Of a stretch of 64,000 nucleotides of DNA, positions 16,350 to 57,235 are shown in pieces. Made by a program: the position numbers and the translations under genes. Under the pieces are notes generated by a model that did no database searches, was not told where the DNA came from, and was given only the letters and a program-made list of their open reading frames with translations. This DNA is from Desulfonatronospira thiodismutans ASO3-1 (lineage in GTDB: Bacteria; Desulfobacterota; Desulfovibrionia; Desulfovibrionales; Desulfonatronovibrionaceae), in assembly GCF_000174435.1 (NCBI RefSeq), contig NZ_ACJN02000001.1, positions 609,658 to 673,657 on the forward strand. Direction: 5' to 3'. Numbering within the stretch: position 1 is the first letter of the stretch; each line of letters begins with the position of its first letter.

Positions 16350-16844
16350 TTATGTTTGAAATATCTTATGCCCTTCTAACCTGAATTCAAGCCCCTGTAG
16401 CAGCCTTGCTGCCACTTGTCCGTCCGGGAGCACCAGTTCAGGGAATATCTCCAGAAGCGGAATCAGAACAAAGGCCCTGGACCCCAGACCGTGATGAGGA
16501 AGGATCAGCCCTTCTTCGTTTATTTCCATGCCTGCAAACAGAAGTATGTCCAGGTCAATGACCCGGGGTCCGTTTCGCGGTCCCGGAATACGCCCCATGT
16601 TTTTTTCCAGTTCTTTTAAGGCTGCCAGAAGATCCAGCGGCTGCCAGGAATCACCACAGCGCATCCACATGACCTGGTTGGCGAACCAGGGTTGATCTTT
16701 CATCCCCTGAGGCTCTGTCAGGTAGACAGATGATTTTTTCACCAGAGAAAGTCCTGGCAGATCTGTCAGTAATTGCGCGGCCCTTTCCAGGTTGTCCGCT
16801 GGATTTCCCATATTGGAACCCAGGCTGATAAATATATCCTGCAT
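16350..16844 (-). CDS. folK: 2-amino-4-hydroxy-6-hydroxymethyldihydropteridine pyrophosphokinase
   Basis: FolK transfers pyrophosphate from ATP to 6-hydroxymethyl-7,8-dihydropterin in folate synthesis. The 164-residue form starting at ATG 16844 (MQDIFISLGSNMGNP) gives the standard N-terminus; ATG 16871 is in frame and would add nine residues. Signature segments: SLGSNMGNPADNL, RIPGPRNGPRVIDLDILLF (the PPPK signature with the catalytic Asp pair) and LPHHGLGSRAFVLIPL. Ribosome binding sites are weak for both starts. The other folate genes are not in view. Confidence 0.92.
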   Translation of the reverse strand: MQDIFISLGSNMGNPADNLERAAQLLTDLPGLSLVKKSSVYLTEPQGMKDQPWFANQVMWMRCGDSWQPLDLLAALKELEKNMGRIPGPRNGPRVIDLDILLFAGMEINEEGLILPHHGLGSRAFVLIPLLEIFPELVLPDGQVAARLLQGLEFRLEGHKIFQT

Positions 16845-17031
16845 AAACTCTGAACAGTCAGAATATTTCATTTAATATCTTGTAGTTATTATATTTGTCT
16901 GCATTTTTTCAGAAGATTCAGGGCAAGCTTGCAGACGAATACAATTATTTCAACATGTTACTGTTACACAAGAAAAAGCAGACGCACATTTATTGAAGTG
17001 ATGCTCAAGGACTTATTCGACCTCCACATCC

Positions 17032-17370
17032 GTAACCATTCAGGGGGCACTCAGTTGTGGTTCTGGCCATTGCGCCAAGGTCTGGGGACTGTCCCCGCTA
17101 AGTACTATCTTTGAAGGATCGTATCTGTTTAGCGCTTTTAAGGAAAGCAGGGGACAGGCACTCCGGGACCCACTTGAGCATCATTTTGTGCTTAAAACAT
17201 CTCATTTTTTGGGACAAGTGGGTCCCGGAAGAGCCAGTCCCCATGCCACATGCAAAGCGCTAAACAGATACGAAGGATCACACAACTTAGCGTTTGTCAT
17301 ATTTTAATTGTGCAGGAAAGGTGTCGCGGGGACTGTCCCCTGGCCGTTGCGGCACCTCCTGAAGGGTTAC
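17032..17370. repeat. Family A element, interrupted by a family B element
   Basis: Ends GTAACCATTCAGGGGG (17032-17047) and a complementary right end stopping at 17370, flanked by the 8-bp direct repeat CCACATCC (17024-17031 and 17371-17378). Internal GGGGACTGTCCCC cores are present. A family B element (17121-17271) is inserted within it. Removing that insert and one 8-bp duplicate gives a sequence that aligns end to end with other family A copies. Confidence 0.88.
17121..17271. repeat. Family B element nested in family A, 151 bp
   Basis: Perfect 18-bp terminal inverted repeats (GTATCTGTTTAGCGCTTT at 17121-17138, complement at 17254-17271). It is flanked by the 8-bp direct repeat GAAGGATC (17113-17120 and 17272-17279). 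The interior has GGGGACAGGCAC and GAGCCAGTCCCC arms that can form a long hairpin. No coding capacity. Confidence 0.9.
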
Positions 17371-17485
17371 CCACATCCCGTGCATTAAAAACCTATATTT
17401 TTCCTCTTGAAGGTGCAAGCCCGGAAAGGTAAGCTGGATTCGATAATTACTTACGAACTTTCATATTTTCCGGAGTAAACCTTCA

Positions 17486-18418
17486 TTGTCCATTCTCGCC
17501 CAAGAGCACCCTCATGCCCGGTCCTTTCTGGAGCATGCCCTGGTCATCAAGGGACTGGCCCATCAGACCGTGGCAGCGTACACCGAGGACCTGTCCACCT
17601 TTCTGGAATTTTTGCAGGAAAAAGGCAAGGATGTCTTAGATATAAATGACCAGGTGCTCTTGGTATATCTCATGTTTCTGCGCCGCAAAGGACTTCAGAG
17701 CCGCAGCCTGGCCAGGCATATGGCCAGCCTGCGCGGGTTTTACGCTTATCTGCATGAACAGGGGCTCTTGAAGGATAACCCGGCTGAAATGCTTGAAAAT
17801 CCCAAGCTGCCGCAGCTGCTTCCCAGGGTTCTGTCCATCCCGGAAGTGGAGAGCATCCTATCCCAACCTTCCACAGGGGACAAGCTCGGAGCCAGGGACA
17901 AAACCATGCTGGAGATGCTTTATGCAGCCGGACTAAGGGTATCTGAACTGATAAACCTCAAGGTCCTGGACTTCGACCCCCAGGCGGGTATAATCAGGGT
18001 GTGGGGCAAAGGTGCCCGGGAACGCCTGGTGCCTTTGCACTTCAGCTGTATGCAGTGGCTGGATTTTTACCTACAGCACTGGCGCAGCTCTTTCTCACCC
18101 CGGGTGGACAAGGTTTTTATCAATCGCTCAGGAAAGGCCCTGTCCAGACAGGGCGTATGGAAGATAATCAAGAAATACACCGTGATGGCCGGGATTAAAA
18201 AAGATGTTTCCCCGCATACCCTGCGCCACTCCTTTGCCACTCATCTGCTGGAGGGAGGAGCCGACCTGCGCACTGTCCAGGTACTTCTGGGACATTCCGA
18301 CATAACAGCCACCGAGATATACACCCATGTCCAGAGCGACAGGCTCAAGTCCGCTCACGATTTTTTTCATCCCAGGTCAAAAAATACAGGAAAGCCGGTT
18401 CATGCAGAAAAAAGATAA
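17486..18418 (+). CDS. xerD: Tyrosine recombinase XerC/XerD
   Basis: Xer recombinases resolve chromosome dimers at dif. The 310-residue product has the N-terminal SAM-like DNA-binding domain (about 8-95) and the catalytic domain with Arg in AAGLRVSELINL (about 155), Lys in GKGARERLVPL, the HTLRHSFATHLLEGGADL box, and the Tyr in ATEIYTHV (about 284). Length and motifs fit XerD/XerC. The start is TTG 17486 with CGGAG about ten bases upstream. It overlaps the next gene. No dif site was identified. It is more likely a housekeeping Xer than a phage integrase. Confidence 0.9.
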   Translation: MSILAQEHPHARSFLEHALVIKGLAHQTVAAYTEDLSTFLEFLQEKGKDVLDINDQVLLVYLMFLRRKGLQSRSLARHMASLRGFYAYLHEQGLLKDNPAEMLENPKLPQLLPRVLSIPEVESILSQPSTGDKLGARDKTMLEMLYAAGLRVSELINLKVLDFDPQAGIIRVWGKGARERLVPLHFSCMQWLDFYLQHWRSSFSPRVDKVFINRSGKALSRQGVWKIIKKYTVMAGIKKDVSPHTLRHSFATHLLEGGADLRTVQVLLGHSDITATEIYTHVQSDRLKSAHDFFHPRSKNTGKPVHAEKR

Positions 18419-32597: not shown

Positions 32598-32769
32598 GTA
32601 ACCATTCAGGGGGACCTCGGTGGTGGCTGATGGCACAAGGCCAGGGGACTGTCCCCGCTAAGTTATGATTATGATGCTTCACAAAATTTTGCGTCTGTAC
32701 TTTTCAGTTGTGCAGTAAAAGTGTCGCGGGGACTGTCCCCTGGCCGGTATCTGTCCCCTGAATGGTTAC
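32598..32769. repeat. Family A element, 172 bp
   Basis: Ends GTAACCATTCAGGGGG and CCTGAATGGTTAC, flanked by the exact 8-bp repeat ATATTTCC (32590-32597 and 32770-32777). It holds two GGGGACTGTCCCC cores separated by an AT-rich centre. Confidence 0.92.
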
Positions 32770-33678: not shown

Positions 33679-33843
33679 GTAACCATTCAGGGGGTCCTCG
33701 ATGGTGACTAACGGCCCAAGACCAGGGGACTGTACCCGCTAAGTTCTAATTATGCAGTTTCACAAAATTTCGCGTCTGAACTTTTTGTATTGTGCAGGAA
33801 AAGTGTCGCGGGGACTGCCCCCCTGTGCCCCCTGAATGGTTAC
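33679..33843. repeat. Family A element, 165 bp
   Basis: Ends GTAACCATTCAGGGGG and CCTGAATGGTTAC, with exact 8-bp flanks ATCTATTT (33671-33678 and 33844-33851). One core reads GGGGACTGTACCC, a point variant of the usual palindrome. It lies 47 bases before the symporter start. Confidence 0.92.
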
Positions 33844-41192: not shown

Positions 41193-41344
41193 TTAACACT
41201 ACAGCTAAACTTATTTATTGACCTCCGGGGACTGGCTCTTTTGCCGCCGAATTTTCGAAGCATTTGCAAATTTGCAACCGGCAAAAGTGCCTGTCCCCAG
41301 TTTAGACAGGTTGAAAAATTTTATAAGTTTCGCTGTAGTGTTAA
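41193..41344. repeat. Family C element, 152 bp
   Basis: A long inverted-repeat element with ends TTAACACTACAG and CTGTAGTGTTAA, and an inner hairpin built from GGGGACTGGCTCTTTTGCCG and CGGCAAAAGTGCCTGTCCCC. It is identical to the copy at 48076-48225 except for one base (T versus G in the left end). No target duplication is evident. Just to its right, 41373-41400 is a remnant of a family A end. Confidence 0.85.
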
Positions 41345-45411: not shown

Positions 45412-45548
45412 GTAAAAGTTTAGCCATTTGCATGTGGCATGGGGACTGGCTCTCCCCGCACTTATTTTAAAACCTGTCAATCTTCCTTTAGAAAAATAAG
45501 TGTGGGGGTGCCTGTCCCCTGCTTTCCTTAAAAAAGCTAAACTGTTAC
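45412..45548. repeat. Family B element, 137 bp
   Basis: Ends GTAAAAGTTTAGC (left) and the complement of GTAACAGTTTAGC (right), with 8-bp flanks TGTTCAAC and TGTTCAAT (45404-45411 and 45549-45556; seven of eight match). The interior carries GGGGACTGGCTCTCCCC and GGTGCCTGTCCCC arms. Confidence 0.78.
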
Positions 45549-48075: not shown

Positions 48076-48225
48076 TAACACTACAGCGAAACTTATTTAT
48101 TGACCTCCGGGGACTGGCTCTTTTGCCGCCGAATTTTCGAAGCATTTGCAAATTTGCAACCGGCAAAAGTGCCTGTCCCCAGTTTAGACAGGTTGAAAAA
48201 TTTTATAAGTTTCGCTGTAGTGTTA
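48076..48225. repeat. Family C element, 150 bp
   Basis: Ends TAACACTACAGCGAAACTTA and complement, with an inner hairpin of GGGGACTGGCTC and GTGCCTGTCCCC arms. It matches the copy at 41193-41344 at all but one position. Immediately to its right, 48226-48288 reads as the tail of a coding frame (ends AAQITSPEN then stop), so it may have cut a gene whose 5' part is not recognisable. Confidence 0.85.
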
Positions 48226-53303: not shown

Positions 53304-53479
53304 GTAATCATTCAGGGGGTGCCGGAATCGGCCAGGGGACAGTCCCCGCGACACATTGCCTTTACAATCACCAATATTACAAGCGCAAAATTCCGTGATC
53401 CTGCACAGACCTACACAGCGAGGGACAGTCCCCAGGCCTTGCGCCAGTTATCAACATCGAGAACCACCTGAATGGTTAC
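53304..53479. repeat. Family A element, 176 bp, inverted
   Basis: Ends GTAATCATTCAGGGGG and CCTGAATGGTTAC, flanked by the exact 8-bp repeat CTTGGGAT (53296-53303 and 53480-53487). It lies 18 bases upstream of the DUF485 start, between that operon and the insertion sequence. Confidence 0.93.
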
Positions 53480-53665
53480 CTTGGGATTATGGTGGGGGTA
53501 CAATCGGCTCGGTCAGAATAAATATAGAATTATTCGGAAAAAATATCAAGTACTGCCAGGTATCTGTTCAGGGCCAATTTATGCTCACAAAAAAATTCAA
53601 AAAATTTATAGAATTAACCCCAAATCCTGGACAAGTGCTCGAAAGTTTGTTACAAGGGGCTCGCC

Positions 53666-54739
53666 ATGCACACAAAGCCCCGTCCTTCATATTTGCTCAG
53701 CGTAAGGCTGCAACCAATCAAAAGGGAGCAGGAAAGCCTGTTCAAGTCTTTGATGGCCAAGTATCACTATCTTGGAGCCTCGCCTAAAATCAGCGAAACG
53801 CTCTGGTATGTCGCCACCTACTCTGATCAGTGGGTTGCCCTGCTTACATTCTCGGCTGCAGCCTTGAAATGCGCGGCCAGGGACCGTTGGATTGGATGGG
53901 AATATCGGCATCGGTTTGACCGCTTGAAGCTTCTGGCCAACAACACTCGTTTTCTTATTCTGCCGGGCTGGAATCTGCCAAACCTGGGATCTCGCATCCT
54001 ATCGCTTTGTGCAAAGCGCATCTCTTTTGATTGGCAACAACATTTTGGCCATCCACTGCTGCTCCTGGAAACCTTTGTCGATCCCAGACGTTACACAGGC
54101 ACTGTATACCGCGCCTCAAACTGGACAGAGCTTGGACTGACCAAAGGCTTTAAAAGAGTCGGCCAAGGATACAGTGCCAAACCTTCATCCCCCAAACTCA
54201 TCTTTGTCTTGCCGCTTCAAGCCAACGCCAGAAAACTGTTGTCTTGTGCCATTCTTAACGCAGCATATCAAAAAGGAGAACCCAAAATGACCATGAATGC
54301 TAAACAGATGGAATCACTCCCGGATTACTTCAAAACTGTCACCGACCCTCGAAGAACACATGGACGCCGTCATCGAATCTCTACAGTTCTGTCCATTGCA
54401 GCAGCAGCCACCCTGTGCGGAATGAAAGGCTACAAGGCCATTTATGGCTGGGCCAACAAACTGGGACAAAAGGCCCGGCAACGGTTTCGGTGCCGCAAGG
54501 AAAATGGAAAATATGTTATCCCCAGTCAGTTCGTCATACGTGATGTTCTAGTCCGTGCGGACCCAGTTGAATTAGATCTGGCTATGCAACGCTTTAACGA
54601 AGATCAAGGCCTCGAAGACACTTGTCTGGCTTTTGATGGCAAAACCATGAAAAACGCCATTGATGAAAATGCCCGGCAAACCCATATTGCCAGTGTTGTT
54701 GGCCATGAATCCAAGACCACCCACACCCAAAAAAAGTAG
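53666..54739 (+). CDS. DUF4338 (DruA-like) domain fused to ISAs1 transposase N-terminus
   Basis: A 357-residue product from ATG 53666, with AAGGGG about seven bases upstream. Residues 1-205 match the C-terminal core of DUF4338, the family of DruA from the Druantia anti-phage system: YLGASPKISETLWYVATY, CAARDRWIGW, NNTRFLILPGWNLPNLGSRI, HPLLLLETFVDPRRYTGTVY. Residues 208-357 are the ISAs1 N-terminal domain (DYFKTVTDPRRTHGRRHRIS) plus the first catalytic Asp in LAFDGKTMK (about 325). It stops at TAG 54737-54739 right after A AAA AAG. A -1 shift would give a 598-residue full fusion. DUF4338 biochemistry is not known. Confidence 0.8.
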   Translation: MHTKPRPSYLLSVRLQPIKREQESLFKSLMAKYHYLGASPKISETLWYVATYSDQWVALLTFSAAALKCAARDRWIGWEYRHRFDRLKLLANNTRFLILPGWNLPNLGSRILSLCAKRISFDWQQHFGHPLLLLETFVDPRRYTGTVYRASNWTELGLTKGFKRVGQGYSAKPSSPKLIFVLPLQANARKLLSCAILNAAYQKGEPKMTMNAKQMESLPDYFKTVTDPRRTHGRRHRISTVLSIAAAATLCGMKGYKAIYGWANKLGQKARQRFRCRKENGKYVIPSQFVIRDVLVRADPVELDLAMQRFNEDQGLEDTCLAFDGKTMKNAIDENARQTHIASVVGHESKTTHTQKK

Positions 54740-55461
54740 GTGCTCTGCCTGCAGAGGATGATGACCAAGAAACGAAGCAGACAAACGAAATCGGGATGTT
54801 TATCCCCATCCTGGAACAAATAGAAATCTCCGGGAAAACTATCACCGCCGACGCGCTTCTTACTCAGAAAAAACTGGCCGAATACATCGTTGGGCGCAAC
54901 GCAGCCTACCTTTTTACCGTCAAAAAAAACCAGCCCACTCTCTACTTCGACATCAAGAAATACTTTGAACACCGCAAAGAACCTGACTATTGCCTCCAAG
55001 ATCCACCAGGTCATGGCCGAATAGATACCCGCTCCATATGGACTACCACCGAGCTAAATGAATACCTTGAATTTCCCCATGTTGGCCAGGCGTTTTGCAT
55101 TCATAAAAAAAGCTATGACCCAAAAACCAATAAAGTCTGTGAAAACACTTTTTATGGCGTAACCAGCCACCATCCAAATAAGGCTGATCCGGCCAGAATA
55201 TTACAAATCCATCGTGGACATTGGAGTATTGAAAACAGCAAACATTATATCCTTGATTGGACTTATGACGAAGACAGAAACAGAATAAGAACCGGAAACG
55301 GCCCTGCAAATACAAATCGCTTGAGAGGTTTTGCCATAGGCTTGCTCAAGTCCAAAGGAGTTAAGGACATCGCTCAAAAAGTGAGAGACCTGCACCAACA
55401 AATCAGGCCCGTTCTGGACTATTTCAAGATGACAAAAAATTCTCAAAAACACAGAACATAA
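54287..55461 (+). CDS. ISAs1-family DDE transposase made by -1 frameshift
   Basis: ATG 54287 has its own strong ribosome binding site (AAAGGAG, eight bases upstream) and gives the normal ISAs1 start MTMNAKQMESLPDYFKTVTD. Reading shifts -1 at 54730-54736 and ends at 55461, giving about 391 residues, a usual ISAs1 length. Catalytic triad: Asp in LAFDGKTMK, Asp in ITADALLTQK, Glu in HWSIENSKHYILDW, followed by the family motif DEDRNRIRTGNGPANTNRLR. The ATG is in frame with the upstream DUF4338, so one gene can give a fused and a free form. If shifting does not occur, the element is a decayed IS. Confidence 0.75.
54730..54756 (+). promoter_or_regulatory. Programmed -1 frameshift signal: A AAA AAG plus hairpin
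   Basis: The heptamer A AAA AAG (54730-54736) is in the correct phase for a tandem -1 slip and is followed directly by the zero-frame stop TAG. Six bases after it begins a hairpin (CTCTG at 54743-54747, CAGAG at 54752-54756, 4-base loop). This is the same heptamer used by E. coli dnaX and several IS elements. Confidence 0.72.
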
Positions 55462-55485
55462 CAAAGGAGAACAAATTTGCCGTGG

Positions 55486-56645: not shown

Positions 56646-57235
56646 TACTGCCCTCCCCTTTTGTCTCTTGGATGGATACCTGAAAAGAACCTTTGCCTGG
56701 TTGCCGGCTGCATAATCCAGCATCCGGCCCAAGATTTCGTGCCTGATCCTGCTGTCCGAGCTGTGCTCGATCTCCACATAATCCAGGCGGAGTTCTTCCA
56801 GACTGGCCCTTGCCACGTTGGTCAGTTTCAGTTCGATCTTTTTGGACGTTCCACTGGCCTTACTGCCTTCCGCTATGTTTTGCACACCCGACCTGGCCGC
56901 CTGGATCATCTGTAACCATTCAGGAGGTCCTCGGTGGTGATTACTGGCACGAGGCTTGGGGACTGTCCCTCGCTAAGTACCGGCTGTGCTGGTACACAAA
57001 ACTTCGCGTCTGTAATTTTTGTAATTGTGCGTAAAAGGTGTCGCGGGGACTGTCCCCAGGCCGGTTCCGGCACCCCCTGAATGGTTACGATCATCTGATC
57101 CTTTGTCCTGCTGAACCGGTTAATGTAGCGGTCGCAGAATCGAACAGTTACATCATATACCAGCTGGGCCAGCTGAAAACTTTTGAGATTTCGATAACCG
57201 CCGTGCTTGGGTATGAGGGTTTCTCGCTGAGGCAA
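56646..57235 (-). pseudogene. Four-helix-bundle (S23-like) gene, split by a family A element
   Basis: The 5' part (TTG 57235 down to 57097) encodes HGGYRNLKSFQLAQLVYDVT and the 3' part encodes GVQNIAEGSKASGTSKKIEL then NVARASLEELRLDY, the four-helix-bundle family known from 23S rRNA intervening sequences. A family A element (56912-57088) with duplication GATCATCT lies between. Removing it and one duplicate restores the frame exactly (KDQMIQAARSG). After RLDY the sequence changes to VEIEHSSDSRIRHEILGRML, a piece from another gene, and runs in frame into the pRiA4b gene, so the gene was also chimeric. Confidence 0.85.
56912..57088. repeat. Family A element inserted in a coding gene, 177 bp
   Basis: Ends GTAACCATTCAGGAGG and CCTGAATGGTTAC, flanked by the exact 8-bp repeat GATCATCT (56904-56911 and 57089-57096). 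It disrupts the four-helix-bundle gene. It is the only copy in the window whose empty target can be rebuilt from protein sequence. Confidence 0.95.

Follow-up and report, generated by a model that had tools for sequence, protein, structure and literature searches.

A nested pair of elements between folK and xerD

The window that we analyzed is a stretch of 64,000 nucleotides (contig C1, positions 609658 to 673657) from the 4.1-Mb genome of Desulfonatronospira thiodismutans ASO3-1, which is in five contigs. Between folK (16350-16871, minus strand) and xerD (17486-18418, plus strand) lies a divergent promoter region that houses two short elements, one inside the other. The outer element, which belongs to family A, spans 17032-17370, starts with GTAACCATTCAGG, and ends with CTGAAGGGTTAC. 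Its left part (17032-17120, plus strand) includes the left copy of the duplication made by the inner element, its right part (17280-17370) has the same orientation, and each part contains the palindrome GGGGACTGTCCCC (17084-17096 and 17328-17340, both plus strand). The inner element, from family B, is complete (17121-17271, plus strand; 151 bp), and six other scored copies match it at 100%. The 18 bases at one end of it are the exact reverse complement of the 18 at the other, and the 8-bp target duplication GAAGGATC flanks it on both sides (17113-17120 and 17272-17279). Its core (17150-17242, plus strand) is a long hairpin that consists of GGGGACAGGCAC, the stem CCGGGACCCACTTG, a loop, the stem again, and GAGCCAGTCCCC. 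There is no open reading frame of at least 100 amino acids inside 17032-17370.

The original prediction, which was made from the sequence alone, had described the B element, its perfect 18-bp ends, and its duplication on both sides; all of these coordinates are exact, and the nested pair is confirmed. The original prediction did not mention the footprint of A itself: direct reading of the flanks shows the 8-bp duplication CCACATCC at 17024-17031, and the right copy is at 17371-17378. It is very probable that these are two MITEs, with A inserted first and B inserted into A later. A putative transposase acting on GTAACC... ends would have put A between folK and xerD, leaving the 8-bp duplication that is seen there. 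Later, a transposase acting on GTATCTGTTTAG ends would have put B into A at GAAGGATC, with the second 8-bp duplication as its footprint.

The same spacer in relatives does not provide an exact empty site. Two congeners (G002 and G003; loci L263 and L262) have a folK-xerD spacer without either A or B, but what is missing corresponds to window positions 16847-17387 or so (about 540 bp, including about 180 bp of other sequence), which is more than A plus B. In another relative, G004, the folK-xerD spacer has its own A copies with other flanks.

Repairing the outer element

If B landed in A, then removing B and one copy of GAAGGATC should leave a continuous A element. The repaired element is 180 bp long. 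The original prediction was that it would align along its length with the uninterrupted A copy at 32598-32769 (plus strand, target duplication ATATTTCC). Overall it does (138 identities, 33 mismatches, and 10 gaps, or 81% of aligned bases), but the exact centre is weakly supported by that copy. The alignment to the copy at 56912-57088 (plus strand, target duplication GATCATCT) has 143 identities, 30 mismatches, and 11 gaps.

We then compared the repaired element to 35 copies of A, namely those from 30 loci in the same genome, two from the window, and three from relatives. The best match was from a relative (L256:1195-1385), with 93.1% identity across aligned columns, or 81.3% if gaps are counted; the score against this copy was 261 for the repaired element and 98 for the unrepaired one. 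L256 is continuous across the junction and has GAAGGTTC at the position of GAAGGATC. The 40 bases around the junction scored 76 of a possible 80 against L256 (38-39 of 40 bases are identical) and 68 against another copy from a relative, L230, while the maximum in 300 shuffles was 35. Against A copies from the same genome, the junction scored 36 or less. The exact centre of A, whose failure to match family A would have argued against nesting, is thus supported by two copies from relatives.

These results bear on whether there was any nesting at all, as recombination between hairpin-rich repeats might have placed a B-like sequence between unrelated fragments of A. A and B do have the motif GGGGACWG in common, and recombinants between the families exist (see below). 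However, B has lost no base from either TIR, and its exact 8-bp duplication lies outside of any shared motif. Furthermore, the two halves of A form a single element that matches L256 and L230 across the junction, and A has its own matching duplication. We consider recombination without nesting to be highly improbable. The insertion of A followed by B, the order that had been predicted for this locus, is supported by the separate duplications CCACATCC and GAAGGATC as well as by the alignments of the repaired element.

Families A and B

Family B has 121 first-look candidates in this genome, of which we scored 40: 33 were at 98% identity or more and seven were at 100%. Allowing up to one mismatch, we counted 92 TIR ends, compared to 0 in a reversed control. 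For the best 30 of the 40 scored copies, 26 have an exact 8-bp target duplication, compared to 0 of 30 in a control with the right flank shifted outward by 20 bases. The exceptions are L024, which has one mismatch, and L003, L007, and L028, which fail at their nominal ends. The median pairwise identity of these 30 copies is 99.3%, so family B is a recent burst of near-identical copies. The window also contains a B-related element (45412-45548, plus strand) with TIR GTAANAGTTTAGC, stem CCCCGCACTTATTTT, and flanks TGTTCAAC and TGTTCAAT.

Family A has 242 candidates in the genome, of which 40 were scored, and 226 exact TIR ends (0 in the control). Of 30 loci, 17 have an exact 8-bp duplication and 13 do not, including four with one mismatch. 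Further copies in the window are at 33679-33843 (plus strand, target duplication ATCTATTT) and, inverted, at 53304-53479 (minus strand, target duplication CTTGGGAT). The median pairwise identity of 30 copies is just 86.7%, compared to 99.3% for B, so B is the younger spread and A is older.

Both A (about 175 bp, with GTAACCATTCAGG ends) and B have TIRs, a target duplication of fixed length, many copies, and no transposase gene. Both are therefore non-autonomous MITEs that need a transposase from elsewhere. When folded as single-stranded DNA, the whole B element has a free energy of -49.7 kcal/mol (z = -11.4). A search of Rfam gave only two matches, both far below the gathering scores, so no RNA function is indicated, and promoters and terminators are not in excess relative to shuffled sequences.

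The original prediction viewed A and B as two separate mobile families. Could they instead be subfamilies of a single type of element that share an enzyme, in which case the nest would be a self-insertion within a family? A and B have duplications of equal length, both start with GTA, and they share the inner motif. On the other hand, their TIRs diverge after GTA (GTAACCATTCAGG for A versus GTATCTGTTTAGC for B), their shells do not align outside of the inner motif, and searches with A and with B return separate sets of loci. Their distributions also differ. The 15-mer end of B is found in 5 of 18 genomes from the family, representing two genera (72 ends in G000, 256 in G004, 7 in G005, 80 in G008, and 21 in G009), while the 16-mer end of A is found in 4 of the 18, all from one genus. 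Among the 80 matches listed for the 18-base end of B in public genomes, almost all are from Desulfonatronospira or from Desulfonatronovibrio MAGs; the exceptions are single contigs in three MAGs that are labelled otherwise. Overall, a single element type seems unlikely. Nevertheless, the two families are not wholly separate, as the 8-bp duplications, the GTA start, and the GGGGACWG module are common to both.

Candidate transposases

GTAA ends and 8-bp duplications are typical of the IS66 family. It is plausible that A and B were moved by an IS66-type enzyme, as their ends begin with GT and their duplications are 8 bp. The genome contains 16 IS66 matches with two types of ends, GTAAGCGTCC and GTGTNCTTTC, and the resident elements begin with GTA or GTG. 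In the first group (ends GTAAGCGTCC), 5 of 9 copies have exact 8-bp duplications; in the second group, we saw an 8-bp duplication by eye in one of three copies. The 8-bp duplications and GTA(A) ends of A and B thus have a likeness in the first resident group. Nevertheless, neither type of end matches those of A or B, so the resident IS66 elements were rejected as parents. Because of this difference, we do not call A or B an IS66 MITE, and only the claim that they work like IS66 is plausible.

We looked for an autonomous partner in several ways. First, among 260 loci, in which some but not all of the A ends were read, no pair of A or B ends that were 500 to 8000 bp apart had a credible duplication. 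Second, 20 stretches of G008, a related genome, yielded no transposase-bearing partner. That genome does have three B-shell elements with duplications (487, 514, and 717 bp) and a fourth that lacks a duplication (1369 bp), but none of these contains an open reading frame of more than 126 codons. Third, IS66 proteins had no match by tblastn in the B-bearing loci of relatives. Three A-like pairs of 2.0 to 2.7 kb were also considered and set aside: their ends have several mismatches and their duplications have one. The DruA/ISAs1-like IS of the window was rejected as a partner because it does not have A or B ends.

This IS (53569-55484) has one open reading frame with DruA and DDE_Tnp_1_assoc domains and another with DDE_Tnp_1. 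It lies within the left TIR of a degraded B-type element (from 55486 on), with a 10-bp duplication (GGTATCTGTT), and there are three near-identical or 99% identical copies elsewhere in the genome. DruA-like proteins were seen in two other kinds of element. An IS66 group of about 3.5 kb with ends GTGTNCTTTCGGC (L108, L109, L110, and L111, in G000) has a DruA-like protein upstream of the transposase. At L104, L105, and L106, a DruA-bearing element has ends CCCCTCCTTRGCYAAGG, and nearby repeats of about 106 bp share these ends; judging from the sequence, these repeats are possibly MITEs of that element.

A hairpin core shared by three families

The inner hairpin module GGGGACWG...CWGTCCCC is found not only in A and B but also in a third family, C. 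In B, the order of the core is GGGGACAGGCAC, stem, loop, stem, and GAGCCAGTCCCC. The window has two copies of C (41196-41341 and 48078-48223, both plus strand), each with ends ACACTACAGC, TA on both sides, and a core that has the frame of the B core but a different stem. In the window, almost all occurrences of the motifs GGGGACTG and GGGGACAG and their complements are inside A, B, or C elements. While the target duplications of A and B are 8 bp, that of C is TA: we found 43 C pairs that are bounded by TA, in a search that required identical flanking dinucleotides. In this respect, C is a candidate for an IS630/Tc1-mariner MITE.

To describe which cores occur in which shells, we classified the stems at all loci assembled for this comparison, after deduplicating by flanks, as s1 (GGGACCCACTTG), s2 (CCGCACTTATTTT), s3 (CTTTTGCCG), or s4 (the CGCTAAG...GTGTCGC core). 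Of 101 B pairs, 67 have s1 alone and 17 have s2 alone. The 43 C pairs include 17 with s3 alone, 17 with s2 alone, and two with s1 alone, and the 63 A pairs include 32 with s4 alone and two with s2 alone; in each family, the rest are mixed, short, or empty. Near-identical s2 cores are found in B and C shells (up to 79 of 80 bases). In the folK-xerD spacer of G004 (L264, about 1160-1466), an A with an s2 core is followed by a partial A with an s4 core and the same tail. A hairpin centre that is shared by elements with different ends is the unusual part of these results and deserves follow-up.

The shells of A come in steps of size: 61-65 bp without the inner motif, 88-92 bp with the motif, and about 175 bp with a longer core. 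In particular, the shells of 88-90 bp have GGGGACWGTCCCC only, and those of 61-62 bp are without the inner palindrome (L015:579-666, L240:5501-5588, L194:6987-7076, L045:143-204, and L251:256-316). From these sequences, A shells seem to have grown or shrunk in steps at the palindrome.

The steps, and the presence of the same stems in B, C, and A shells, might also be explained if the GGGGACWG core were itself mobile and inserted into MITE shells, for instance as a target of Y1 (RAYT) transposases. The genome has 31 matches to Y1_Tnp, and one RAYT group has GGGGACAG close to its left edge, yet most of 30 Y1 loci do not contain the motif. A mobile core should also be found by itself, but of 32 further core sites in this genome, 31 are in a B- or C-type shell or half-shell (as judged by eye) and the remaining one (L317) is 4 bp from an A end, which leaves no clean solo core. 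Moreover, for 50 of 66 s2 cores, the most similar core lies in a shell of the same type, which counts against the exchange of cores. A core that moves by itself is thus quite improbable, and the evidence for a RAYT origin of the core is only suggestive.

REPs and REPINs, which are moved by RAYTs and are the subject of PMC3116915 and PMC2817692, resemble these elements in having palindromic pairs, and RAYT-like Y1 genes are plentiful in this genome; the difference is that A and B have TIRs and 8-bp duplications and C has TA. The RAYT-like genes are densely clustered in G000 (C2:18576-30322 and C3:275906-293603). At L112 and L113, a Y1 transposase gene lies between inverted GGTTTGGGGTCGGACCTAA repeats, and these two copies are 97% identical.

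Hybrid elements and the order of insertion

With GGGGACWG inner repeats common to A, B, and C, a nest is open to recombination between these repeats and can thereby lose sequence, which would leave a hybrid. Hybrids of the expected form are found elsewhere in this genome and in relatives. We examined the flanks of 254 cores with the B/C frame: both flanks are of type B for 148 cores and of type C for 52, another 16 have a B flank and a C flank, and the remaining 38 had a flank that we could not assign. The 16 cores that join a B half-shell to a C half-shell show the pattern expected from nesting followed by deletion between shared cores.

Some hybrids suggest which element landed in which. Four C elements (L162:4207-4356, L168:3163-3344, L171:5645-5813, and L195:2572-2735) have the whole left half of a B in their left arm, then one core and the right arm of C; their sequences suggest that B landed in C and that the stretch between the two cores was then lost. 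Conversely, L237:7425-7591 and L236:2024-2124 have the left half of B, one core, and the right end of C, after which come TA and the final bases of B, as if C had landed at a TA inside the end of B before a loss between cores. L253 and L203 are similar but without the TA. Two A shells contain only half of a B-type element (L167:4747-4879 and L220:3262-3423), and L230:1211-1486 has a piece of A inside C.

Clean nests, in which both partners have duplications, are rare: among 343 loci, we found one B in A (17032-17370) and two C in B. The nest in the window, in which two insertions at a single promoter region can be cleanly ordered, appears to be the undeleted form of the kind of event that gives rise to hybrids, and so an intact example of an arrangement whose deleted forms occur here and in relatives. 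By itself, it is unremarkable: with about 46 B copies and about 113 A copies (each about 150 bp) in a genome of 4.1 Mb, roughly 0.2 nests of B in A are expected by chance, and more if insertions avoid genes. The insertion of one MITE into another is known and ordinary, and finding about one such case is no surprise.

It had been proposed that other nested cases could be used to build a relative timeline. We found B in A, C in B, B in C, and a piece of A in C, and these do not support an order of the families. The hybrids, with B halves in C and an A piece in C, imply that the families were active over overlapping times. Since B and C nest both ways, the order of arrival is valid for 17032-17370 but not for the families.

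The GGGGACWG core might be a selfish or selected module that passes between the MITE shells of different transposition systems (8-bp and TA), with nesting, as at 17032-17370, bringing two cores together and so creating new combinations of shell and core. This is a tentative idea that we think is more probably wrong than right. If hybrids do arise by deletion within nests, bacterial MITE families would not only mutate from a parent IS but also swap parts across transposition systems, which would explain why the parents of many MITEs are unrecognizable from their inner sequence.

A, B, and C resemble bacterial MITEs as portrayed in the main text of a review (PMC10969869) in that they are short, lack a transposase gene, have TIRs, target duplications, and many near-identical copies, are intergenic, and form hairpins; they differ in that families with different duplications share one inner core. 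Nested or hybrid MITEs go unmentioned in that main text, which does not include "nested," "chimer," or "mosaic." The Tn3-derived TIMEs, as covered in PMC4133298, are MITEs that form hybrids or composite non-autonomous elements by recombination. However, TIMEs have 38-bp Tn3-type IRs, 5-bp duplications, and gene capture, whereas A and B have 8-bp duplications, C has TA, and it is a hairpin core that is exchanged. Our literature search, whose scope was journals other than subscription journals, found no paper on families A, B, or C and no occurrence of the 13-mer GGGGACTGTCCCC.

Cores of A-like and B type were also seen together beyond the genus: two loci in G008, which belongs to another genus, have B-shell elements with an A-like inner core beside the B core (L293:969-1482 and L294:773-1259).
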